From the IMG/VR virus record IMGVR_UViG_3300036851_000712, positions 1 through 44,299 of that record: a stretch of DNA of 44,299 nt, one strand, 5' to 3'. Positions 3,526 to 35,628 of this stretch are shown here, in pieces. A program made the translations under genes and the position numbers. Each line of letters opens with the position of its first letter. Position 1 is the first letter of the stretch. Origin of the DNA: a virus. The notes beneath the pieces are model-generated. The model made no database searches, was not told the origin of the DNA, and saw nothing but the letters and a program-made list of their open reading frames with translations.

Positions 3526-4409
3526 CAGATCCTCGCCAGGGTCGGGTGATGGGCATGGAGGCGAGTCGCCTCCTCCCTGATGCGCTGGTTGCGCAGGGCC
3601 ATCAGGTACTGGGACGCTCCCCGGGCCGTGCCCGGAGGCACGTCGGCAGCGTCGCGGCTCTCGGGCTGGGACTCGGTGAACGAGCGCTTGACCTCCCGAG
3701 TGGCCACCAAGCGGGCGGCGGCACCGAGTGGCAGGATGTCGTGGGCCTCGGCGTGCAGGCCGGTGTCGATGGCCACGTCCGTCGAGGTGGTGGCCAGCGC
3801 CGCGTAGGGCGCCTTGTAGACCATGTGGATGGTACGTCCGGGGCCCGCCCCCTCGTAGAGGAGGAGGGCTTTGCCACTGGCGAACTCGGCGGTGTTCATG
3901 TTCTCGGCAATGCGATAGCGCCGGATCTCCGGCCACTCGCCCGTGCTGTAGCCCTTCCAGGCGATGTTGAGCACGCCCTGGAAGTCGGTGACGGCGGTGA
4001 GGTCGTAGCCCTCCCGGCCGGGGGAGTAGGTGAGGTCGACGGTGCGGGCCCGGTAGAGGCCGTTGAGGGGCGAGGAGAGGGCGGCGAGCTCCTCGGCCAG
4101 GGCCCGGTAGATGGACCAGTCGCTGAAGATCGGGTTGACGTAGATCAGGGTGTCGTCGGCGTGGGTGGCGCCGGCGGAGCCGAGATAGCCCCGCTGGACG
4201 GTGGCTATCTGGCCGGTGGCAGAGAACACGTAGATAACCTCGTACTCGATGCCCAGCAGGGCTCCCTGGGCGATGCCTCCCATGGCCAGCTCGGCAGTGA
4301 GGGCGGTCTGGCTGGCGGTGGCGGCGCCGTCGAGGCGATTGAGCTCGTCCCTGGCCCCGGACTGGAGGTGGCGGCGGGTCTCACTGACTAGTTCCGAAGT
4401 AGTAGTCAC
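3525..4409 (-). CDS. head-tail adaptor-like structural protein
   Basis: 294 residues from ATG 4409. Residues 5-30 form a helix, followed by a beta section that ends in VQRGYLGSAGATHADDTLIYVNP (about 70-92), a motif that recurs in phage connector and adaptor proteins where an element like TRGYxGTTAAxH sits before a helix (FSDWSIYRALAEELAALSSP). The C-terminal 40 residues are helical and rich in Arg. It is most likely a neck or tail-completion protein linking the portal to the tail. The assignment is from sequence pattern and gene order only. Confidence 0.5.
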   Translation of the reverse strand: MTTTSELVSETRRHLQSGARDELNRLDGAATASQTALTAELAMGGIAQGALLGIEYEVIYVFSATGQIATVQRGYLGSAGATHADDTLIYVNPIFSDWSIYRALAEELAALSSPLNGLYRARTVDLTYSPGREGYDLTAVTDFQGVLNIAWKGYSTGEWPEIRRYRIAENMNTAEFASGKALLLYEGAGPGRTIHMVYKAPYAALATTSTDVAIDTGLHAEAHDILPLGAAARLVATREVKRSFTESQPESRDAADVPPGTARGASQYLMALRNQRIREEATRLHAHHPTLARI

Positions 4410-5749
4410 CCGGTCAGTACCCCCGCTTCGATGTCGTCGGCCCTGGTGGGCTGGCTACCCAGTCGTTGGTGACAAGTACCGCAGTAGCTCTGGCTGGCAG
4501 AGGCGTCGATGGGCAACTGGCTCGGGTGCAGGCCGGTGTCGTCCCCCTTGGTGCAGACAGGGTCGAGGACCCCTGCTTCCCACAGCACCCTCTTGATGTC
4601 CGCCTGCTCCAGATAGGTCTGGCCGGCGAGGAAGTGGAAGGTCGAGCCGGCGATCTCACACATCCAGTTGCGGTTGGTCACCACCTCGTAGCGCAGGCGC
4701 TGCGGCTCATACCAGGAACCGTTACCGGAGTAGGGGACTTCTAGTCGCTCGGGTCCAATAGCCTCAACGAATCCCTGCGCCGTACGGGCCCAGGTGAACT
4801 CTTCTGCCACCACCATGGCGGCGGCGGCAGCATGGGCGAGAGCGTCGTCATAGTGGTCGTAGACCCATCGCATCCGGTCACAGAGGTCGTCAAAGGATGG
4901 CTCCCACCACTCCCCGGCTTCCCCGTAGACGAAGTACGCAGACTGGGTCCGCTCGGCCGAGAGACCGAGACCGAGATGTGCGAAGGAGTCGTGCCCATGA
5001 GCAGCCGTGAGGACAGTCGGGCAACCTTGAGCCAGAGCCTGTAGCGGCTGAAGCCCGAAGCCTTCCCCTCTAGATGGTCCCAGGTAACAGTGACTCGTCG
5101 CGTACAGGTCGACCTCTGCTTCTGCGGAGATTCGTCCACTGATGACCTCCACTCTCGGAGCTCGGAACTCGCCACCCTTGGGTGACTTCATGCGCAGGTA
5201 GGGGACGGGCCCGCTGCCCCAGGAGCTCTCCTTACCGAAGACAGCCTGGAACGCCTTCCAGGCCAGGTCGGTGCCCTTGCGCTCCCCGGAGCCGCCGATG
5301 AGGAAGCTGAAGCGGTCGGCGGGCTGTTGCCGAGGCTCGTAGTGCCAGACGGTGGGGTCCACGCCGAGGGGAACCATGTGGACGTTGTTGTGGTAGCGGG
5401 AGAACAGCTCGAGGTTGTGGTGGGAAGGGACGACGACGACGTCGAACTCGTGGAGAGTGTCACGGAAGGACTCGGGCAGACGACCGGACTCCCACATGGT
5501 GGCCACGACCGACAGCTGGCCGTCGAACCAACCCCGACCATGGGTGGGCACCGAGACCCAGGCGACGACGTTGCACAGCTTGGACGGCGCCCCGGTGTGC
5601 TGCTCGTGCGGCCTGCGGTACTCGGCCGGTATCGGCATGTCGTCGTAGACGTCGATGCCGGCGGCGGTGAGGGCCTTGGCCAGGTTGGCCCCGAACCGGC
5701 CGTACCCGATGGCCTCGCTGCTCACCCTGTAGAGCGTCAGCTCTCTCAC
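4406..5749 (-). CDS. GT4-type glycosyltransferase
   Basis: 447 residues. The GTG at 5749 overlaps the stop of the upstream HNH gene (GTGA); the longer open frame before it is shadow. The N-terminal Rossmann part carries YGRFGANLAKAL (about 16-27), and the C-terminal nucleotide-sugar site has YLGPSRGEGFGLQPLQALAQGCP. In GT-B family 4 enzymes this region is E-x7-E; here the second Glu is Gln, a change at a normally catalytic or donor-binding position. The last 70 residues are extra, with a C-x2-C pair (CGTC) suggesting a metal-binding tail. Phages of actinobacteria are known to glycosylate capsid and tail proteins with genes placed among structural genes, so virion decoration is the likely role. 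Confidence 0.8.
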   Translation of the reverse strand: MRELTLYRVSSEAIGYGRFGANLAKALTAAGIDVYDDMPIPAEYRRPHEQHTGAPSKLCNVVAWVSVPTHGRGWFDGQLSVVATMWESGRLPESFRDTLHEFDVVVVPSHHNLELFSRYHNNVHMVPLGVDPTVWHYEPRQQPADRFSFLIGGSGERKGTDLAWKAFQAVFGKESSWGSGPVPYLRMKSPKGGEFRAPRVEVISGRISAEAEVDLYATSHCYLGPSRGEGFGLQPLQALAQGCPTVLTAAHGHDSFAHLGLGLSAERTQSAYFVYGEAGEWWEPSFDDLCDRMRWVYDHYDDALAHAAAAAMVVAEEFTWARTAQGFVEAIGPERLEVPYSGNGSWYEPQRLRYEVVTNRNWMCEIAGSTFHFLAGQTYLEQADIKRVLWEAGVLDPVCTKGDDTGLHPSQLPIDASASQSYCGTCHQRLGSQPTRADDIEAGVLTG

Positions 5750-6222
5750 TTGTTCCTCGCTCTCCACTGCCGCGTCCGCTCCCGGGAACACTCTCGGCAC
5801 ACACGCTCTCCCTGGTGGTGCCAAGTGTTCTCCTCATCGAATGGGTGGCCATGCGCGCAGTGCGTCTTAGCAGCATTCATCGCTGCGAAGTTCGTGGGAG
5901 CCCGCAACACATTCTCTTGCTGAGTCACCGCCTTCAGGTGACGAGGGTTGACGCAACGTCGATGTTCGCAAACACCGCCGGCACACACTTCGGTGTGGCA
6001 CAAGTGGTCGATGACCAAGCCATTCGGGATCGGTCCCACCGCCAGCCCATAAGCAATGCGATGTGCTAGATGCTGATCGAACTGCCCATAGCCATTGTCG
6101 AGGACGTTAGAGCGCCACTCCCAACAGTCATCTGGGGTGGCCCCAACCAGGGCAACCTTCCACCAGAACCGATACTCCAAGGGCAGGAAGCGCTGCCGGT
6201 AGAGGTTCCCCTGGAATTTCAC
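5746..6222 (-). CDS. HNH homing endonuclease
   Basis: 158 residues from GTG at 6222, overlapping the upstream stop (GTGA). An HNH_3-like core is visible: HRIAYGLAVGPIPNGLVIDHLC (catalytic His73) followed by CVNPRHLKAVTQQENVLR (second His95 and helix). The C-terminal 40 residues are a separate zinc module, C-x2-GH-x-F-x3-NT ... C-x2-C, found in two other proteins of this window (7098-7589 and 13131-13772). Such free-standing nucleases spread themselves among phages. It sits between two late genes without breaking either frame, and its codon use appears less GC-rich than that of its neighbours. Confidence 0.88.
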   Translation of the reverse strand: MKFQGNLYRQRFLPLEYRFWWKVALVGATPDDCWEWRSNVLDNGYGQFDQHLAHRIAYGLAVGPIPNGLVIDHLCHTEVCAGGVCEHRRCVNPRHLKAVTQQENVLRAPTNFAAMNAAKTHCAHGHPFDEENTWHHQGERVCRECSRERTRQWRARNK

Positions 6223-6503
6223 TGAGGGCCTTTCAATCCCAATTCGTAACACCTGTCAACGCCTTCTTCTGCGAGAGCTTTGCCCTGCTTCGATTTGGCT
6301 ATCCAGCCCATCTCCACCTCGATCTCCAGCGTGGCGTGCTGCTCGAGGTGGCGGGAGCCCTTGACATGGCCGGGCTGGAGGCCGTTGGCCCGCAGGCGTC
6401 GATAGGCGTCCCGGTCTCGGCCCAGCTGAGCCTCGGCGGCGTTGACCGCCCGGGTGGCGGGACGAATGACACCGATCGAGCGCCACTTCTCCAGGTCGCT
6501 CAC
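6219..6503 (-). CDS. hypothetical protein, 94 aa
   Basis: GTG start at 6503 overlaps the FkbM stop; the end overlaps the HNH start. Basic N-terminal half with a helix (TRAVNAAEAQLGRDRDAYRRLRANGL), then a short beta region (ATLEIEVEMGWIA) and a helical end. No cysteines or membrane segment. Between a methyltransferase and a glycosyltransferase it could be part of the virion modification cassette, but nothing in the sequence shows that. Not recognised. Confidence 0.55.
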   Translation of the reverse strand: MSDLEKWRSIGVIRPATRAVNAAEAQLGRDRDAYRRLRANGLQPGHVKGSRHLEQHATLEIEVEMGWIAKSKQGKALAEEGVDRCYELGLKGPQ

Positions 6504-7114
6504 CGAGCCATCACCCACCAGTGGTTGCGCCATGTGTAGCCCCCTTCCCTCACGTAGTCGCCGTGACGAAGCTCAGTCAGGTCGTATCCGGGTAACAGGT
6601 CCCGGACGAGCGGCCCGTGCCTCTCCCGGTGGACCTCGACGACGACCTGGGGATGGTGCTCGGCCAAGGTGCGCTGGGCCCCCTCGAGCACCCCGATCTC
6701 CGCCCCCTCGACGTCGATCTTGCAGAAGTCGGGGGGGCCGTACACGCGGGTCAGCCAGTCGATGGTGACGCAGGGGACGGTGCGCTCACCGACGATGGCG
6801 CCCCAGGACAGGCCCTCGCCGGTGGTGAGCTGGCCGCTGCGGATGGAGCGGGCGGTCTCGGTGAGGGTCAGCTCGCCCTCGTGGTCGGCGGCAGCCAGGC
6901 ACAGGACGGTGACGTTGTCCGGGGTCTCGGTGGCGGCGATCTCGTAGGACTCGGTGCAGGGCTCGAGGGCGACGACGTGGGTGAAGTTGGGAGCCATGGC
7001 CCTGGCCGTAATACCAATGTTCGCTCCAATATCAAAGGCGAGGCTTCCATGGGCCGCGCAGATGACCTCGTGCGCACCAGCCTGATCGCGGTGATTATCA
7101 AGACGAGTTATCAC
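6500..7114 (-). CDS. FkbM-family SAM-dependent methyltransferase
   Basis: 204 residues. The SAM-binding motif is FDIGANIGITAR (27-38), and the FkbM signature CKIDVEGAEIGVLEGA lies near residue 135. FkbM enzymes O-methylate sugars or similar hydroxyls, so together with the glycosyltransferase downstream it may finish a glycan on virion proteins. The start chosen is GTG 7114, which overlaps the 3' end of the HNH gene by 17 bases. The first 30 residues are nearly identical in layout to the orphan peptide encoded at 7586-7699, showing that the gene's 5' end is duplicated around the HNH gene. Confidence 0.85.
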   Translation of the reverse strand: MITRLDNHRDQAGAHEVICAAHGSLAFDIGANIGITARAMAPNFTHVVALEPCTESYEIAATETPDNVTVLCLAAADHEGELTLTETARSIRSGQLTTGEGLSWGAIVGERTVPCVTIDWLTRVYGPPDFCKIDVEGAEIGVLEGAQRTLAEHHPQVVVEVHRERHGPLVRDLLPGYDLTELRHGDYVREGGYTWRNHWWVMAR

Positions 7115-7589
7115 GTCGGCTCCTGTAGTCCCGCTGCTTCTGTCGAGCCTCTTCTGGGTGCTCGCGCCAGAGGCGCCTGATCCGCTCCGCGTCGCAGGCT
7201 CGGCAACGGCGAGCACCTCGGTGAGAGCGTCCCGTGTTCTCCGGCGTGAACTCGTGACCATTGACACAGTGCGTCTTGCGAGCGTTGATCGAAGCGAGAG
7301 CGGTTTCGCTCTCCATCAGGTTCGCCTGTTGGCTCTTCGGCTCCATGTGGTCGGGCCGGGCGCAGGTCACATCGCCGCACTGGTGAGCCAGGGTCAGCCC
7401 CGGAGGAATCGGTCCTCGCATCAACTCGTAAACCATCCGTGCTGCTGGAGTGCGGACGCGCTTGCCGTCGATGCGAACGCGAGCCATCGCCCGGTCGGTG
7501 AACCTGTCCTTCTCTCCGCGCCATCCCCAATGATCGTCGTCGAGGAGAAGCTTGTCCCAGATGTATTCCAGAACCGTCTTCTGCTTCAT
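7098..7589 (-). CDS. HNH homing endonuclease beside FkbM
   Basis: 163 residues. ATG at 7589 is chosen because it forms an ATGA overlap with the FkbM fragment; an ATG at 7604 in the same frame would add MGDWG, which looks like displaced FkbM sequence. HNH-like core: AARMVYELMRGPIPPGLTLAHQCG with His69, then CARPDHMEPKSQQANLM with His81. The usual Asp before the first His is Ala here, so activity may be reduced. C-terminal zinc module C-x2-GH-x-F-x3-NT ... C-x2-C as in the HNH gene at 5746. It separates an FkbM 5' remnant from the intact FkbM gene, indicating an insertion event. Confidence 0.85.
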   Translation of the reverse strand: MKQKTVLEYIWDKLLLDDDHWGWRGEKDRFTDRAMARVRIDGKRVRTPAARMVYELMRGPIPPGLTLAHQCGDVTCARPDHMEPKSQQANLMESETALASINARKTHCVNGHEFTPENTGRSHRGARRCRACDAERIRRLWREHPEEARQKQRDYRSRRDNSS

Positions 7590-7699
7590 GCCCCAGTCCC
7601 CCATGTGGCGCCGATGTCGAAGGCCAGGGCGCCGGCGGCGGAGGAGATCACGTCCCAGGCGCCGGCCTGGTCCTCGTGGTTGTCGAGCCGTGTGATCAT
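7586..7699 (-). pseudogene. 5' fragment of an FkbM methyltransferase gene
   Basis: A 37-codon frame from ATG 7699 (ATGA overlap with the preceding gene). It encodes MITRLDNHEDQAGAWDVI, then an Ala/Ser stretch and LAFDIGA, which aligns residue for residue with the N-terminus of the intact FkbM protein (VITRLDNHRDQAGAHEVI...LAFDIGA). After the glycine motif the frame changes: the +1 reading continues as MGDWG, which would fit a typical FDIGAxxGDW motif. The fragment then stops in an ATGA overlap with the HNH gene. It is probably the remnant of the original gene, cut off by the HNH insertion. Confidence 0.8.
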
Positions 7700-12459: not shown

Positions 12460-12942
12460 TTACGTGACGATGGGACCGGTGACCCCGTACTTGTCGGGGT
12501 CGCAGCGGGCGATGATGGCCAGGACCTCTTCCTGGGAAGTGGCCTTGGCGATCTCGGCGGCGGGATCGAAGGGCGGCGGAGGTGCGGCCCCCGCCTGTGC
12601 CTGGGCCAGGCGCTGGTGAGCAGCCAGGTCGGCAGGATTGTCGGCGGAAGGAGGGGGAATGGTCTCGGCCGGAGCCTTGGCGAAGCCGGCGTCGGTGACG
12701 GCCTGGCGGATGGCCTCGGTGGTGAGCTCCCCCTTGTAGCCAGCCTGGAAGTACTCGAACCAGGGCTCACCCGTTCCTGTGCCGATGGCCTTGGCGAAGG
12801 CGTTCTCGCGCTCCATGGAGGTGAGGCGCTCCTTCAGTTCCTTGGCCTCCTTGGCCTGGGCTTCGAGCTGGCGGATATGGGACCGGGGCACCAAGTCCTG
12901 GCCCTGGTCGTCCTCTTCCTGGTTCTGGTCGTCGTCAGCCAT
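12460..12942 (-). CDS. capsid scaffolding protein
   Basis: 160 residues, very acidic at the start (MADDDQNQEEDDQGQD). A coiled coil occupies about 22-48 (HIRQLEAQAKEAKELKERLTSME), followed by a linker rich in Pro and Ala and a short C-terminal helix. This composition, and the position directly before the major capsid gene, are typical of scaffolding proteins that guide shell assembly and then leave. Ribosome site AGAAAGGA precedes ATG 12942. No protease domain is visible. Confidence 0.8.
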   Translation of the reverse strand: MADDDQNQEEDDQGQDLVPRSHIRQLEAQAKEAKELKERLTSMERENAFAKAIGTGTGEPWFEYFQAGYKGELTTEAIRQAVTDAGFAKAPAETIPPPSADNPADLAAHQRLAQAQAGAAPPPPFDPAAEIAKATSQEEVLAIIARCDPDKYGVTGPIVT

Positions 12943-13095
12943 GGGGTTCCTTTCTGGGGCTACGCACCCTTCCCGATACGCACGCCAGCGGGTGGGAGTG
13001 GCGTGGAGGGTGGAGAAACGGTCCCACCCGGAGACCTCAGGTGGGTCAATCCGGGGACCAAACTCCGCAGAGATCGTATACCAAACTCAAGTCGC

Positions 13096-13124
13096 TTCCC
13101 ATCGTTCGGTTACTTTGATATACT
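13096..13124 (+). promoter_or_regulatory. promoter of the plus-strand zinc-finger gene, leaderless
   Basis: TATACT at 13119-13124 ends six bases before ATG 13131, so transcription would begin at or next to the start codon. The -35 region (TTCCCA, 17 bases upstream) is weak. The 188 bases between 12943 and 13130 hold this promoter, the scaffold ribosome site and a hairpin (CCCACC ... GGTGGG, about 13023-13045); I see no gene in them. Confidence 0.55.
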
Positions 13125-13130
13125 GCGCCG

Positions 13131-13772
13131 ATGGTTAAGAAGCCCGGTGGTATGGCGTGGCAGAGCCTAAAGACCCATTGTCCGCGCGGGCATCCTTATG
13201 ACGACCAAAACACGCGTTATACCAAGCAGGGATACCGCCAGTGCCGTACTTGCATGACTCGCACAAAAGCACTTCGAGAAAACACGGGCTACTACGTCAA
13301 GAGGTATCGAGACCAGGAATGCCCGATCTGCGGACTCAAGTGGTTCGTCAACGCCTCGTCCCATGTCCGTCAAGCACATGGACAAAAAATTCCCGGGTTG
13401 GTGAGCGAAGACTGCCGCTTCATGAGCCTGGCCCGCTTCACTGATCTTGGCCTTTTCGATTACTCCCCCGCAGCCATTCGGCGACGACACCGGCAATGGG
13501 CAAAGACGATCTTGCGAGAGCAAGCCCGGGGTGGGGAGTATGTCACTGAACTAATGCGGCTGTGGAAGGTCAGCCGAGGAGGAGCCGAAAAACGAATCAA
13601 GCTCGTACTAGATGACGGACTCATCCCTCCTCGGCCAGGGAGAACGCATCGAACCCATTGTCGTAAGGGGCACCCTTACAACGAAGAAAACGCTTATCTC
13701 AGAAGCGACGGCAAGTATCAATGCCGTGTGTGCAAACGAGAAGCCTGGCTACGTCGCACTCCCAAGACCTGA
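13131..13772 (+). CDS. three-zinc-finger DNA-binding protein related to HNH gene tails
   Basis: 213 residues on the opposite strand to the late operon. Two copies of the module C-x2-GH-x-Y-x3-N ... C-x2-C lie at the ends (about 17-42 and 180-205), the same module that ends the HNH proteins at 5746 and 7098. Between them are a C2H2 finger (CPICGLKW...HVRQAH, about 63-82) and a helix-turn-helix-like part (VTELMRLWKVSRGGAEKRIKLVL, about 138-160). No HNH catalytic core is seen, so it may be a degenerate mobile element or a regulator. Its lower GC content suggests transfer. It overlaps the end of the facing late gene by 24 bases. Confidence 0.75.
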   Translation: MVKKPGGMAWQSLKTHCPRGHPYDDQNTRYTKQGYRQCRTCMTRTKALRENTGYYVKRYRDQECPICGLKWFVNASSHVRQAHGQKIPGLVSEDCRFMSLARFTDLGLFDYSPAAIRRRHRQWAKTILREQARGGEYVTELMRLWKVSRGGAEKRIKLVLDDGLIPPRPGRTHRTHCRKGHPYNEENAYLRSDGKYQCRVCKREAWLRRTPKT

Positions 13773-14912
13773 CTGCTGGCCGCCGATGCCCGCCGCCCCA
13801 CCGCCGCCACTGAACCGGGCCTGACGGGCGGCGCGCCGCTTGGCCAGGGCCTCCTCGGCACCAGCCTGACCGGCGGCCGCCCCCAGAGCGGTGGCCCGGC
13901 CCAGGTCGCTGGATTCCTCGGCCGTCTCGCTGAACAGCGGGGCGAGGCGGGTGACGTTGCCCAGGGTCTCGGCGGTGGCGCCTCCCTGGAGGGCAGCGGC
14001 GGCCTCGGCCTGGGTGAGCTCGCCGCCGAAGGCCGCCCCGAAGCCGCCACGCTCCCCTGCCCCGGCCAGCTGGGCGGTGCCGTAGAGGAACTTGCGCTCG
14101 ATGAAGGGCATGGCCTTGTCGGGGTTGAGCCAGAAGGCGGTCATGTCGCCGTCGGTGATGCCCCAACGCTTGAGGGTGGCCAGGGTCTCGGGGGGAGCGG
14201 TCTGGGCGGCGGTGCCGGCGGCCTCGACGGCATCGACGATCTCGTTGGGGGACCAGCCATTCTTGATGAAGTCGCCGAAATCGTCGTGGCTGTCGTAGAA
14301 GCCGGCGGGGAGGCCGGCAGCCTGCATGGCCTGGGTGACCGACTGCTCGTACTGGATGTACTGGGCGGGGGACCAGGCCAGACCCTTCTGAGCCAGGGTG
14401 TCGAAGCCGGGGAAGCGGGCCTTGAACTGAGGGGTCTGCTGGATGTCGAGACTGATCTGCTCGATGGGGCGACCCTCGTTGACGTACCAGTCGGTCCACA
14501 GCGTCTGGGCCAGGGAGGGATCGAGGCCGAATTGCTGAAGAGTGGCGGCGATGGTGGCCTTGGCAGAGGCGCCCGCAGGGGAGGTGGCCCGGATCTCGGC
14601 GGCGGTGGGGGTCTGGGTCGTGGTCGTGGTTGTCGGGGTGGTGGGGAAGAACTCGTAGCCGGCCTCGCCGGGGGTGGCGGTGAGCGAGCGGTAGCCACCG
14701 CCGGCGGTGGCTTCGATGCCGGTGAAGCGCCGGTTGGGATCATTGCGGTTGACGGCCATCTCGGGGGAGAAGTAGGAGCCGAGGAAGGGAGCCCCACCCT
14801 CGGCGAAGACCCCGCCCTGCTCGCCCTGGAGCCAGAACCCGCCGCCGGGAGCAGGGATCTTGGCGACGATGTGCTCGTTGGTGCCGGGATAGATGTCGCC
14901 GATCTCAGCCAT
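13749..14912 (-). CDS. putative internal virion protein, 387 aa
   Basis: 387 residues from ATG 14912, three bases after the upstream stop. The first 90 residues are Gly-rich and mention no known motif; a Thr-rich linker (about 92-103) is followed by a mostly helical domain (about 108-300) with repeats of short amphipathic helices. The end is rich in Ala, Arg and Gly (SGGGGAAGIGGQQSG). It lies in a run of three large proteins between portal and scaffold genes, the usual place for ejection proteins in short-tailed phages. Family not recognised. Confidence 0.5.
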   Translation of the reverse strand: MAEIGDIYPGTNEHIVAKIPAPGGGFWLQGEQGGVFAEGGAPFLGSYFSPEMAVNRNDPNRRFTGIEATAGGGYRSLTATPGEAGYEFFPTTPTTTTTTQTPTAAEIRATSPAGASAKATIAATLQQFGLDPSLAQTLWTDWYVNEGRPIEQISLDIQQTPQFKARFPGFDTLAQKGLAWSPAQYIQYEQSVTQAMQAAGLPAGFYDSHDDFGDFIKNGWSPNEIVDAVEAAGTAAQTAPPETLATLKRWGITDGDMTAFWLNPDKAMPFIERKFLYGTAQLAGAGERGGFGAAFGGELTQAEAAAALQGGATAETLGNVTRLAPLFSETAEESSDLGRATALGAAAGQAGAEEALAKRRAARQARFSGGGGAAGIGGQQSGLGSAT

Positions 14913-32371: not shown

Positions 32372-33267
32372 CGGCCGATCACCACAGAGTGAGCTGCTCG
32401 CCGTCCGCCGGCGAGGATGTAGCGGCCGATGTACTCGGCGACCTGGGGGACGACGGCGTTTCCGAGAGCTCGGAGCTGATCTCGAGCCAGTCCAGGGGGA
32501 AGCCCATGAGCCACGCGACCCACTTCGGGTTCAGCTTCCCACCACTGGCCCCACCGCCCCGGGGAGGAGCCGCCCCCGTCGCTCCCGGCAGGGTCGGGTA
32601 GTCCCTCCCGCTCCGGTGCATGTAGCCGGCGTTGAGGTGGTCGTTGGCCGTCGGCGTTGGCCAGAGGTCGTGCCTGGCCATGTGCTCCAAGGACGGCCGG
32701 GCCTTGCCCTCCCGGGAGTAACCCCTCGGGTCGCTCGAGTCCGAGCCCCCCTTGTTGGTTCCATAGCTGACGGCGCTGGGCGTGGGCAACGACGAAGATC
32801 CGTTGCCGGAGGTGAGGAGCTCCAAAGGCGGCAGCTGGTAGGCGACCCCATTCCGCGTCATACCCCAGTAGGGCCAGGTCCCCGAAGACCTCTTGCGCCG
32901 CTCGCCCGCCGCCAACCGTGAGGAGGGCGGGCACGTTCTCCAGCAACGCCCATCGGGGTCGTAGGTGGCGAAGGCAACGGGCGAATTCGGGCCAGAGCCA
33001 GCGCTCGTCTTCTTGCGCTTTCTGGCGGCCGGCGGCGGAGACGGGCTGGCAGGGGAAACCGCCGGCGACGAGGTCGACAGGGGCGACTCCGGCCCAGTCG
33101 ACGTCTCGAATGTCTCCGTAGCGGGTGACGTCGGGCCAGTGGTGGGCGAGGACCCGTCGGCAGTAGTCGTCGACCTCGACCTGCCAGGCGCAGGTGAAGC
33201 CCGCCCGCTCGAGGCCGAGATCGATGCCGCCGATGCCGGCGAAGAGACTACCGACGGTGAGCTCCAC
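32368..33267 (-). CDS. dcm: DNA (cytosine-5) methyltransferase
   Basis: 299 residues from GTG 33267 after GGAGGCG. All main C5 motifs are present: I GSLFAGIGG (6-14), IV GGFPCQPVSAAG with the catalytic Cys73, VI ENVPALL (110-116), VIII RQRIFVVAHA (154-163) and X RALGNAVVPQVAEYIGRYI. The target-recognition part between VIII and X (about 165-245) is short and low in order. Methylates cytosine in a specific site, probably to resist host restriction. Almost the whole gene also lies inside an open frame continued from the polymerase gene. Confidence 0.9.
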   Translation of the reverse strand: MELTVGSLFAGIGGIDLGLERAGFTCAWQVEVDDYCRRVLAHHWPDVTRYGDIRDVDWAGVAPVDLVAGGFPCQPVSAAGRQKAQEDERWLWPEFARCLRHLRPRWALLENVPALLTVGGGRAAQEVFGDLALLGYDAEWGRLPAAAFGAPHLRQRIFVVAHAQRRQLWNQQGGLGLERPEGLLPGGQGPAVLGAHGQARPLANADGQRPPQRRLHAPEREGLPDPAGSDGGGSSPGRWGQWWEAEPEVGRVAHGLPPGLARDQLRALGNAVVPQVAEYIGRYILAGGRRAAHSVVIGR

Positions 33268-35108
33268 TTTTTCGCCTCCACCATGTGCTTGACGATGCTG
33301 AACGGATTGACGTCGTCGACCACCGCCTGGAGCATGACGCCGACCACCTCGCCGGTGCCCGGGGGCACCTCGGCCACCAAGGAGTCGTAGACGTTGAGCA
33401 CGAAGCGCCCGCCGATGCCGGCCAGCAGGGGGGTGGCCTGCATCTGTACGTCGCGGATGAACTCGCCGACGTTGCCCTGGCAGCCGGCGTTCCAGGCATC
33501 CTTGTAGGGGTCGAGGTAGCCCGGACCCCGGAAGTGGCGATAGCGGCCCGGGGGATAGAGGCGGATCTTGCCCTCCTCCCGGGCGATGTCCTCGTAACGG
33601 GCCTTGGCCCGCTCGAGGGTGGGGAACATGTGCGCCAGGCGCACCACGAAGGTGCGGGCCCGGCCGACGTCGGGCAGCACCAGCTTCCCGGTGCGCTTGC
33701 ACGCCTCGGTGGCCAGCACCTGGGCCAGCTTGGCCGGGCCCCCGCCGTACTGGCGGGCGAGGACCACCGTCTTGGCCGTCTGGCGGGGGCAGTCCAGGTC
33801 GGCGGCGATCTCGGAGTAGAAGTCCCGGTCGGGGTCGTTGAGGATGGCCAGCATGGCCGGATCCCGCGACAGCGCCGCCGCCTTGCGCACCTCGGCCTGG
33901 GCCAAGTCGTACTCCCACAACTCCAGCCCCTCTGCTGCCACCAGCACCTCCCGCACCTCGGCGATGGCGTTGTCGGGGCGGGGGATGGTCAACAGGTTCG
34001 GCTCCCTGGCCGTCACCCGGCCGGTGCGGGTGTAGCCGTAGGAGGGATGCACCCGGCCCGTCGGGTCGGCCCGGGTGAGGAGGGGCTCGTAGTAGCCGAC
34101 GATGGCCTTGGCCAGGTGGCGGTACTCGAGGATGAGCCCGACCCGGGGATCGTGGGCCAGCTCGATCAGCGCTTCCTTGGCGGTGGAGTCGGCCCCCGAG
34201 TCGGTATGCCAGCGACAGCGATGGCCCCACGTCCCGTAGACCAGTTCGGCCACTTTCGGACCCTGGGCGTTGGCACCCAGGTCGATGCCCTGGCTGGCGA
34301 AGACCGCCCGCAGACGCTCCAGGCGAGCGAGGTCCCGGGCTCGTAGCACCTGAGCCCGGGCCTCGCTCACGCCGAGGCCGACGCGCTCCATCTCGTAGAC
34401 GGTGCGCTGCCAGTCCATCTCCCTGGGCATGGCCACGCCGATGTCGGGGCGGCCATCGGCGATCAGGGCCTGCTGGTGGTGATACAGCCGGAGCGTCAGC
34501 TCGGCGTCCTTGGCCGCGTAGGCGGAGATGTCGGCGACGGTGAAGGTGCCCCAGTCCTTGGGCTGGCGCCGGGGGTCCTGCTCGGCCAGGGCCCGGGCCT
34601 GCTTGCGGGTGTATCCATTCTGCTTGCTGTTGTAGTACTCGTCCTCGAGATCCTTGAGCGTGGCCCCCCGGCGCAGTCGGTCGAGGTGGCGCTTCTCGTC
34701 GCCGGCGTCGTGACCGAAGAGCAGCGAGCACCGTTCCTTCAACCCGTGGTTGAGACCCTCGGCCTCCAGCCAGCACCCCACCCAGGTGTCCCAGGCGTTG
34801 ACCGCCCAGTCCTTCTCGGGGACCAGCTGGGAGAGCGAGAGCCAGTCGACACCTTTGGCATGGTGGTAGAGGAGCGGGCCGGCGTGGCCGGCCAGGCGGT
34901 AGGCCACCCGCCAAGCCGACTCCTTCGACCAGTTGCCCCCGCCGGGGTGGGAGACGGGCACGTAGACCGACCAATCGCCGGCGGCGACGGAGAAACCTCG
35001 CAGCTCGGAGCCGGCCCACCTCGGGGCGCCGTTGGTCTCGACATCGACCGAAATTGCTTCTCCTGATGGGACTGCCATGATCCGATCAAGGAGTTCAGAC
35101 TCAGACAT
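32379..35108 (-). CDS. polA: family A DNA polymerase with long open C-terminal extension
   Basis: 909 residues as read; about 1-615 are polymerase I-like. 3'-5' exonuclease: DVE near 22, and YAAKDAE near 199. Polymerase: TGRVTAREPNLLTIPR, motif A YDLAQAEVR (Asp about 401), motif B RQTAKTVVLARQYGGG (about 442-457), motif C NVYDSLVAEV (Asp about 575; the usual HDE is YDS). There is no 5'-nuclease domain. The homology ends near KHMVEAKKW, yet no stop occurs until 32379: the frame runs through the methyltransferase gene in another phase. ATG 35108 overlaps the upstream stop (ATGTCTGA); an earlier in-frame ATG is at 35141. Main replicative polymerase. Confidence 0.88.
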   Translation of the reverse strand: MSESELLDRIMAVPSGEAISVDVETNGAPRWAGSELRGFSVAAGDWSVYVPVSHPGGGNWSKESAWRVAYRLAGHAGPLLYHHAKGVDWLSLSQLVPEKDWAVNAWDTWVGCWLEAEGLNHGLKERCSLLFGHDAGDEKRHLDRLRRGATLKDLEDEYYNSKQNGYTRKQARALAEQDPRRQPKDWGTFTVADISAYAAKDAELTLRLYHHQQALIADGRPDIGVAMPREMDWQRTVYEMERVGLGVSEARAQVLRARDLARLERLRAVFASQGIDLGANAQGPKVAELVYGTWGHRCRWHTDSGADSTAKEALIELAHDPRVGLILEYRHLAKAIVGYYEPLLTRADPTGRVHPSYGYTRTGRVTAREPNLLTIPRPDNAIAEVREVLVAAEGLELWEYDLAQAEVRKAAALSRDPAMLAILNDPDRDFYSEIAADLDCPRQTAKTVVLARQYGGGPAKLAQVLATEACKRTGKLVLPDVGRARTFVVRLAHMFPTLERAKARYEDIAREEGKIRLYPPGRYRHFRGPGYLDPYKDAWNAGCQGNVGEFIRDVQMQATPLLAGIGGRFVLNVYDSLVAEVPPGTGEVVGVMLQAVVDDVNPFSIVKHMVEAKKWSSPSVVSSPASAASISASSGRASPAPGRSRSTTTADGSSPTTGPTSPATETFETSTGPESPLSTSSPAVSPASPSPPPAARKRKKTSAGSGPNSPVAFATYDPDGRCWRTCPPSSRLAAGERRKRSSGTWPYWGMTRNGVAYQLPPLELLTSGNGSSSLPTPSAVSYGTNKGGSDSSDPRGYSREGKARPSLEHMARHDLWPTPTANDHLNAGYMHRSGRDYPTLPGATGAAPPRGGGASGGKLNPKWVAWLMGFPLDWLEISSELSETPSSPRSPSTSAATSSPADGEQLTLW

Positions 35109-35628
35109 CTGCACTGAGAAACCGTCCTGTGACTGGGTCATTCCTTCTACCTGGACCTTGATGGCTTAGTGCAATTTCAAAGGCTGACCGTTTTACAGAG
35201 CCGAGGTACGGCCAGAGACGCCCATATACCTGCCTGATGGTCACCATGCTGTCGGTCTGCCACTGCCAGTATGGCTTCCGCTGGTGTCCGTTGCTCTTGT
35301 TGAGATACGGGCCGCGAACTCGACCGACACCGACTATCCAGCAAAAGCGATCCAATACCTCCCGGTGATTCTGAGCAATAGAGGTAACAGGGCGTGTGTA
35401 ATGTTTCCCCCGCTTTTTGTTGAAGCAGGCGGTAATACCGGCGTATCCCTCACCATCAAAAAATCCAGCCGCCCACGCGTAATCTGTTTCCCCAGGCTCA
35501 ACTGCTTCTCTCCAGACCACGTTCCCCCCAGCTTGACTCGGCTTGACAGGCTCAATAAGCTCACGCTCCGCAGAGCGGGCGGAGCCCCGGAGCGGAGCTT
35601 CCCTGACGGGGGTGTGCCCGTTTACCAT
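35101..35628 (-). CDS. LAGLIDADG homing endonuclease
   Basis: 175 residues; ATG 35628 overlaps the upstream stop. One LAGLIDADG helix is clear (AWAAGFFDGEGYAGI, about 51-65), so it should act as a dimer. C-terminal half has VGRVRGPY, YWQWQTDSMVTIRQVYGRLWPYLGSVKRSAF, typical of the family. The first 45 residues are unlike the family and may derive from a neighbouring gene. Base composition is visibly lower in GC than the helicase and polymerase genes it separates, suggesting recent arrival. Confidence 0.85.
   Translation of the reverse strand: MVNGHTPVREAPLRGSARSAERELIEPVKPSQAGGNVVWREAVEPGETDYAWAAGFFDGEGYAGITACFNKKRGKHYTRPVTSIAQNHREVLDRFCWIVGVGRVRGPYLNKSNGHQRKPYWQWQTDSMVTIRQVYGRLWPYLGSVKRSAFEIALSHQGPGRRNDPVTGRFLSADV

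Follow-up and report, generated by a model that had tools for sequence, protein, structure and literature searches.

The 44,299-nucleotide stretch of viral DNA analysed here (IMG/VR record IMGVR_UViG_3300036851_000712; hereafter the window) raises the question of what a gene built from the zinc modules of HNH endonucleases does among capsid genes when its product, P0001, shows no nuclease of its own. The initial annotation had described two HNH-tail zinc modules flanking a C2H2 finger and an HTH-like part, and had proposed either a mobile gene that lost its nuclease and became a regulator or a new kind of nuclease. The coordinates of the gene, its parts, and its surroundings are collected in Table 1.

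Table 1. Features of the P0001 locus and related zinc modules, numbered from the first base of the window
Feature	Position	Strand	Basis or remark
Junction holding the insert, between scaffold-like and internal-protein genes	12943..13748		806 bases, compared with the spacing in relatives
Direct repeat ACCAAACTC, two copies, 23 bases apart	13057..13088	+	Upstream of the promoter-like site; only copies in the window
Promoter-like site TTCCCA-17-TATACT, TG before the -10	13096..13124	+	Consensus match; ends 7 bases before the ATG
P0001, 213-residue ORF	13131..13772	+	ATG start; zinc-module protein without a recognised nuclease family
Zinc module, copy 1 (residues 17-41)	13179..13253	+	Pattern match and module alignment; pLDDT 93-98
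C2H2-like finger (residues 64-84)	13320..13382	+	Sequence, alignment to L092/L095, beta-beta-alpha in models
HTH-like stretch (residues 137-166)	13539..13628	+	Weak: Pfam DIP2311-like_C below cut-off, low model confidence
Zinc module, copy 2 (residues 177-201)	13659..13733	+	Pattern match and AlphaFold model
Zinc module ending the HNH_3 protein 5746-6252	5788..5859	-	Pattern match; HNH_3 match of the host protein
Zinc module near the end of the HNH_3 protein 7098-7604	7194..7268	-	Pattern match; HNH_3 match

A six-frame search of the window located the module pattern C..GH-x(4,12)-N-x(5,16)-C..C four times: twice in P0001 and once in each of two minus-strand proteins matching HNH_3 (PF13392; E 3.7e-10 for 5746-6252 and 1.6e-6 for 7098-7604). 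The two copies in P0001 are identical at 13 of 27 residues and arrange their ligands as C-x3-H...C-x2-C. AlphaFold modelled them with good confidence (pLDDT 93-98 and 79-94), predicting a beta-hairpin followed by a helix beginning at the final CxxC. A treble clef comprises a knuckle, a beta-hairpin, and a CxxC at the start of a helix, and the predicted element order can be read as fitting this fold; the PDB rows for module 2 were weak matches to RING/IBR chains (Z 2.1-2.4). Between the modules lies C-x2-C-x10-H-x4-H (residues 64-84), which has both the C-x2-C...H-x(3-5)-H signature and the beta-beta-alpha topology of a C2H2 finger, modelled at intermediate confidence (pLDDT about 70-80), with an x10 spacing shorter than the classical x12. 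The sequence retains every zinc ligand of the two modules and the finger. The ~85 further residues between the modules are mostly helical in the AlphaFold model, where residues 149-172 are unreliable (pLDDT <50). Modelled alone, the middle of the protein gave a poor result (mean pLDDT 54.6) and kept beta-beta-alpha at the finger, a topology that the two C2H2 rows in the input alignment may have favored. The six-frame pattern, the sequence, and the models thus bear out the two modules and the finger of the initial annotation; the HTH part is weakly supported, by one sub-threshold Pfam match (DIP2311-like_C, residues 137-166, E 0.013, 16.2 bits against a cut-off of 27) that runs into the low-confidence stretch of the model.

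No nuclease family was recognised in P0001. Pfam at E<=1 returned three sub-threshold matches, none of them to a nuclease, and NCBIfam at E<=1 returned no nuclease family; the HNH core (HNH_3) is absent by Pfam, unlike in the two HNH proteins of the window. In PHROGs, the hits below E 0.001 were two HNH families, covering module-length stretches, and PHROG 928, a family of unknown function. A Foldseek search of the model against BFVD and PDB gave nothing at E<=0.001, a result with which a nuclease fold is still compatible. Near the top of the BFVD results were mostly HNH proteins matched over ~40-60 residues, along with a podovirus protein in a single 219-column row (probability 0.54), and the best VIA-align matches were unrelated chains (Z 3.7). 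Structure comparison, the check originally proposed, therefore gave no clear match of P0001 to a complete nuclease, by Foldseek or by VIA-align. The suggestion of a new kind of nuclease gained no positive support, and a degenerate nuclease is conceivable, given a weak resemblance of residues 61-118 to the endonuclease VII profile.

That resemblance underlies an alternative in which residues ~61-118 are an endonuclease VII domain that has degenerated or diverged very far. P0001 would then belong, in decayed or altered form, to the module-module-endonuclease VII proteins and would have an extra C-terminal module. The endonuclease VII profile (PF02945) aligned to residues 61-118 with hhalign probabilities of 73% (5 sequences) and 55% (10), pairing a CxxC, an H...H, a further C, and a G-x-F-x(3)-P-like segment, and P0001 outscored every one of 150 shuffles in one control and all but one of 300 in another, the C2H2 residues being kept in both. 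Several endonuclease VII proteins carry two modules (L020, L034, L166, L167, and L170); these rank near the top of the tblastn matches listed for P0001 and, like P0001, place their N-terminal module(s) ahead of a CxxC segment. They possess the full endonuclease VII motif, however, whereas P0001, as aligned, has neither the catalytic D-H pair nor the N nor a fourth cysteine for zinc; the residue roles behind the DH.H motif, the four zinc cysteines, and CxxCN are described in PMC6083498. A true member scored 118 against 29-31 for P0001, and of the 120 module ORFs that do not belong to the endonuclease VII set, one scored as high as P0001 did. The models, including the one informed by two C2H2 rows, give the finger the beta-beta-alpha topology of C2H2, and a C2H2 finger occupies the equivalent place in L092, an intact HNH_3 protein that ends in a module followed by a finger, the order seen in the N-terminal half of P0001 (L095 is similar). 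Because P0001 lacks the catalytic residues and a fourth zinc ligand, and given the score controls, we read its middle as a C2H2 finger plus helices and keep a dead endonuclease VII remnant as the main competing reading, though an improbable one.

Relatives of this middle region were sought in several ways. It had no match in 50,697 phage records (tblastn, E<=10) or in 295 genomes of Streptomyces, the genus of G001, and its sequence patterns retrieved no relative. Because none was found for residues 52-169 in the searches made, selection on this segment is not demonstrable. Patterns drawn from P0001 itself likewise gave no full-length relative in viral or genome contigs. A two-module DNA pattern with the P0001 spacing returned 0 stretches, although its first copy must contain CACCC, where P0001 has CATCC, so that the pattern would miss P0001 itself. 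Among 396 phylum-level and 394 class-level genomes, partly overlapping draws, matches occurred in 8 and 9 genomes, respectively, and nearly all were of module length. A match to Pseudomonas plasmids spanned residues 25-188 at E 8-9 and was dropped as chance. The parts of P0001 and the principle behind it are known; these searches turned up no other instance of the assembly.

The module itself also occurs in other proteins. We scanned IMG/VR with an alignment of module fragments and with a narrower one, and also scanned bacterial genomes. The 80 and 79 top-ranked loci from the two IMG/VR scans yielded 129 de-duplicated, plus-strand module ORFs, of which some are fragments or were read from stop to stop. 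The counts depend on the ranking, by similarity to P0001, and on the choice of loci; since one scan covered its best matches only, the proportions that follow are not population estimates. Pfam recognised HNH_3 in 91 of the 129, endonuclease VII in 9, NUMOD4 in 7, GIY-YIG in 4, and LAGLIDADG_3 in 2. Modules in these loci are often tandem, two or three in a row. The invariance of C, H, N, C, and C in the resulting alignment (A8) is partly by construction, as the motif used to pick ORFs demands these residues. Judged by sequence, the module is a head or tail piece common to at least four unrelated nuclease families; the name "HNH tail" holds for the two HNH_3 proteins of the window, which both end in it, and is too narrow for the wider set. 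No model for the module turned up in Pfam or NCBIfam, and we found no published description of it in the accessible portions of the literature consulted, which leaves its absence from print unproven.

Proteins carrying the module without a nuclease family also exist. On Oerskovia/Cellulosimicrobium chromosomes, an HTH and a zinc knuckle precede a module (L136, L140, and L142); the knuckle reads C..C...C..H, and these genomes hold several module loci each. The likeness to P0001 lies in the same zinc module, the HTH-like part, and the lack of a nuclease family, whereas these proteins have one C-terminal module, an N-terminal HTH, and no C2H2 finger of the P0001 type. Small solo-module ORFs without a nuclease were seen at four further loci (L052, L070, L072, and L121). 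A Streptomyces plasmid protein (L016:775-1869) combines sigma-70 region 2, a mid-protein zinc module, and a C-terminal HTH-like segment. In two further cases that resemble each other (L105:2494-3129 and L218:2042-2665), a module is joined in frame to the C-terminus of a phage-structural-looking protein that is not a nuclease, a fusion that possibly arose by capture from an inserted nuclease gene.

The initial annotation placed the gene between internal-protein and scaffold genes. This position is confirmed, with P0001 on the strand opposite to both neighbors: the scaffold-like gene spans 12460-12942 and the internal-protein gene 13749-14912, the 3' end of which the P0001 ORF overlaps by 24 bases. 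Relatives retrieved with the capsid protein keep the gene order of 488-residue protein, internal protein, scaffold-like protein, and major capsid protein. Free-standing homing endonucleases characteristically appear as an optional gene between two conserved genes, and the presence-absence comparison proposed at the outset reveals the same here: the internal-to-scaffold junction measures 806 bases in the window, and among the matches listed all 67 measurable relatives lie within 58-167 bases, with a median of 129. The comparison set held 84 loci, namely the best 80 from the capsid search, L004, and three Streptomyces phages; 67 of these had both internal and scaffold hits, and the other 17, including all four added loci, were not counted. 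Read by eye, the L004 junction is ~128 bases and has no insert. By a strict module pattern, none of the 84 loci carries the module. All three Streptomyces phages examined (Zeigle, Abafar, and RosePharie) have 14-21 tRNA genes annotated at this junction; the window has no tRNA genes. The junction thus looks like a variable cargo site occupied by a tRNA array, the P0001 gene, or nothing (window 12943-13748; L006, L007, L008, and L004; 67 listed relatives).

Base composition sets the insert apart as well. The P0001 region has the lowest GC of all 642-base segments of this DNA, and its GC3 is 58%, compared with 68-74% for the HNH genes and 80-93% for eleven other genes compared. The ~70 bases upstream are 48% GC and hold the -10-like site. 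Given the long junction and the low GC, we conclude that the gene came in with these ~70 bases. Two other observations concern the remainder of the window. A 920-residue ORF (32379-35141, minus strand) matches DNA polymerase families at residues 15-607 and a DNA methyltransferase at 690-896, and by sequence may be a polymerase-methyltransferase fusion or a read-through. Near one HNH gene lies a glycosyltransferase gene (4406-5698, minus strand; PHROG 2170, E 4e-33).

A leaderless promoter belonging to the gene had also been proposed. The promoter-like site in Table 1 is the sole one between 12800 and 14000, where 0.2 were expected, and as a consensus match 7 bases before the ATG it is consistent with a start that is likely leaderless. 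Leaderless initiation is likewise proposed for a mycobacteriophage HNH insertion, which has flanking zinc fingers (PMC11855218). The two ACCAAACTC copies upstream are speculative candidates for operator half-sites; by our own estimate, a 9-base direct repeat would arise by chance in about one in eight stretches of 256 bases. Separately, the leader of the scaffold-like gene contains a perfect 9-base inverted repeat, CGGGTGGGA/TCCCACCCG, around a 24-base loop (12989-13030).

Known systems offer several points of comparison. The actinophage HNH_3/NUMOD4-HNH endonucleases (PHROG 826 and PHROG 1492) share the zinc module of P0001 (E 2.4e-17 and 2.8e-18) and, like it, are free-standing insertions between conserved late genes. 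P0001 differs in having no HNH core and in modules that flank a finger and a helical part rather than trail a nuclease; the C-terminal module that it has in common with actinophage HNH_3 members is accessory and not diagnostic. I-TevI binds an operator through its DNA-binding domain and represses its own expression, with a DNA-binding half that sets a zinc finger, an alpha-helix, and an HTH on a long site (PMC2988022). I-TevI, however, keeps its GIY-YIG nuclease and has another type of zinc finger, and the HTH of P0001 is not established. CapR, encoded by the PLE satellite, represses ICP1 capsid expression and is homologous to the Zn-finger domains with which T5orf172 homing endonucleases target DNA (PMC10448857). 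CapR and P0001 are both Zn-finger proteins related to homing endonuclease targeting domains, and P0001 adjoins the capsid genes of its own phage. CapR is satellite-borne, has a reported function, and carries a CxxC...CxC finger (PMC10448857); P0001 is phage-borne and known from sequence, and its modules (C-x3-H...C-x2-C) do not contain the CapR-type motif.

Taking as observed the architecture, the shared modules, the lack of a recognisable nuclease domain, the insertion, the foreign base composition, and the promoter-like site at the ATG, we place about even confidence in P0001 being a recently captured relative of a free-standing homing endonuclease gene that has DNA-targeting modules only and is a putative regulator. 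The proposal of a mobile gene that lost its nuclease fits best with the insertion, the lowest GC, the absence of nuclease family and structure matches, and the nuclease-free module proteins elsewhere; its regulatory part goes further than these data. The anatomy of P0001, in the order zinc module, C2H2-like finger, helical (possibly HTH) part, and zinc module, leads us to predict multi-point DNA binding without cutting. Each module would be a small treble-clef-like finger touching DNA, and together they would bind one long site, so that the protein probably binds DNA without cleaving it. With expression driven by a promoter of its own, probably a leaderless one, P0001 would repress or tune transcription in the manner of the I-TevI DNA-binding half and of CapR, and by this analogy it is probably a regulator. 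Its likeliest targets would be its own promoter and/or the scaffold-capsid genes, which start 189 bases upstream on the other strand.

The same anatomy could also be that of a non-functional remnant, a homing endonuclease gene shuffled by recombination into a nuclease-less, neutral chimera that is being lost. An orphan middle without relatives, low GC, and an insertion missing from relatives (67 of 67 measurable among the matches listed) all agree with this, and domain swapping among homing endonuclease genes is documented (PMC10448857). Decay sits poorly, however, with 213 intact codons, with the retention of all zinc ligands in three fingers, and with a promoter-like site placed exactly at the start codon, and we consider a remnant unlikely. 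Another possibility starts from the targeting module common to P0001 and both HNH_3 proteins of the genome: P0001 might be a protection factor that occupies and shields the target of its own or a rival module-bearing HNH enzyme, and would be kept beside two HNH genes for that reason. As the modules differ among the three proteins and the common target is hypothetical, we consider this very improbable. The preferred reading, that of a captured gene with targeting modules and a putative regulatory role, can be extended further. Among phages of high-GC bacteria, the targeting modules of homing endonucleases may make up a toolkit independent of any nuclease, from which the stand-alone P0001 assembly would have moved into the capsid operon with its own leaderless promoter, where it would control capsid expression as an independent invention of the CapR principle; we advance this broader view as doubtful.

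P0001 is a clear case of homing endonuclease DNA-targeting parts standing alone. Its module, for which no Pfam or NCBIfam model was found, appears on sequence grounds to be common to at least four unrelated nuclease families and to HTH and sigma-like proteins; if such modules are portable DNA readers, they would constitute a natural kit of targeting domains. The locus further suggests that a variable cargo site lies immediately upstream of the scaffold and capsid genes, holding tRNA arrays, the P0001 gene, or nothing. Within that site, the P0001 gene offers a case in which the possible change of a selfish gene into a regulator can be put to the test.
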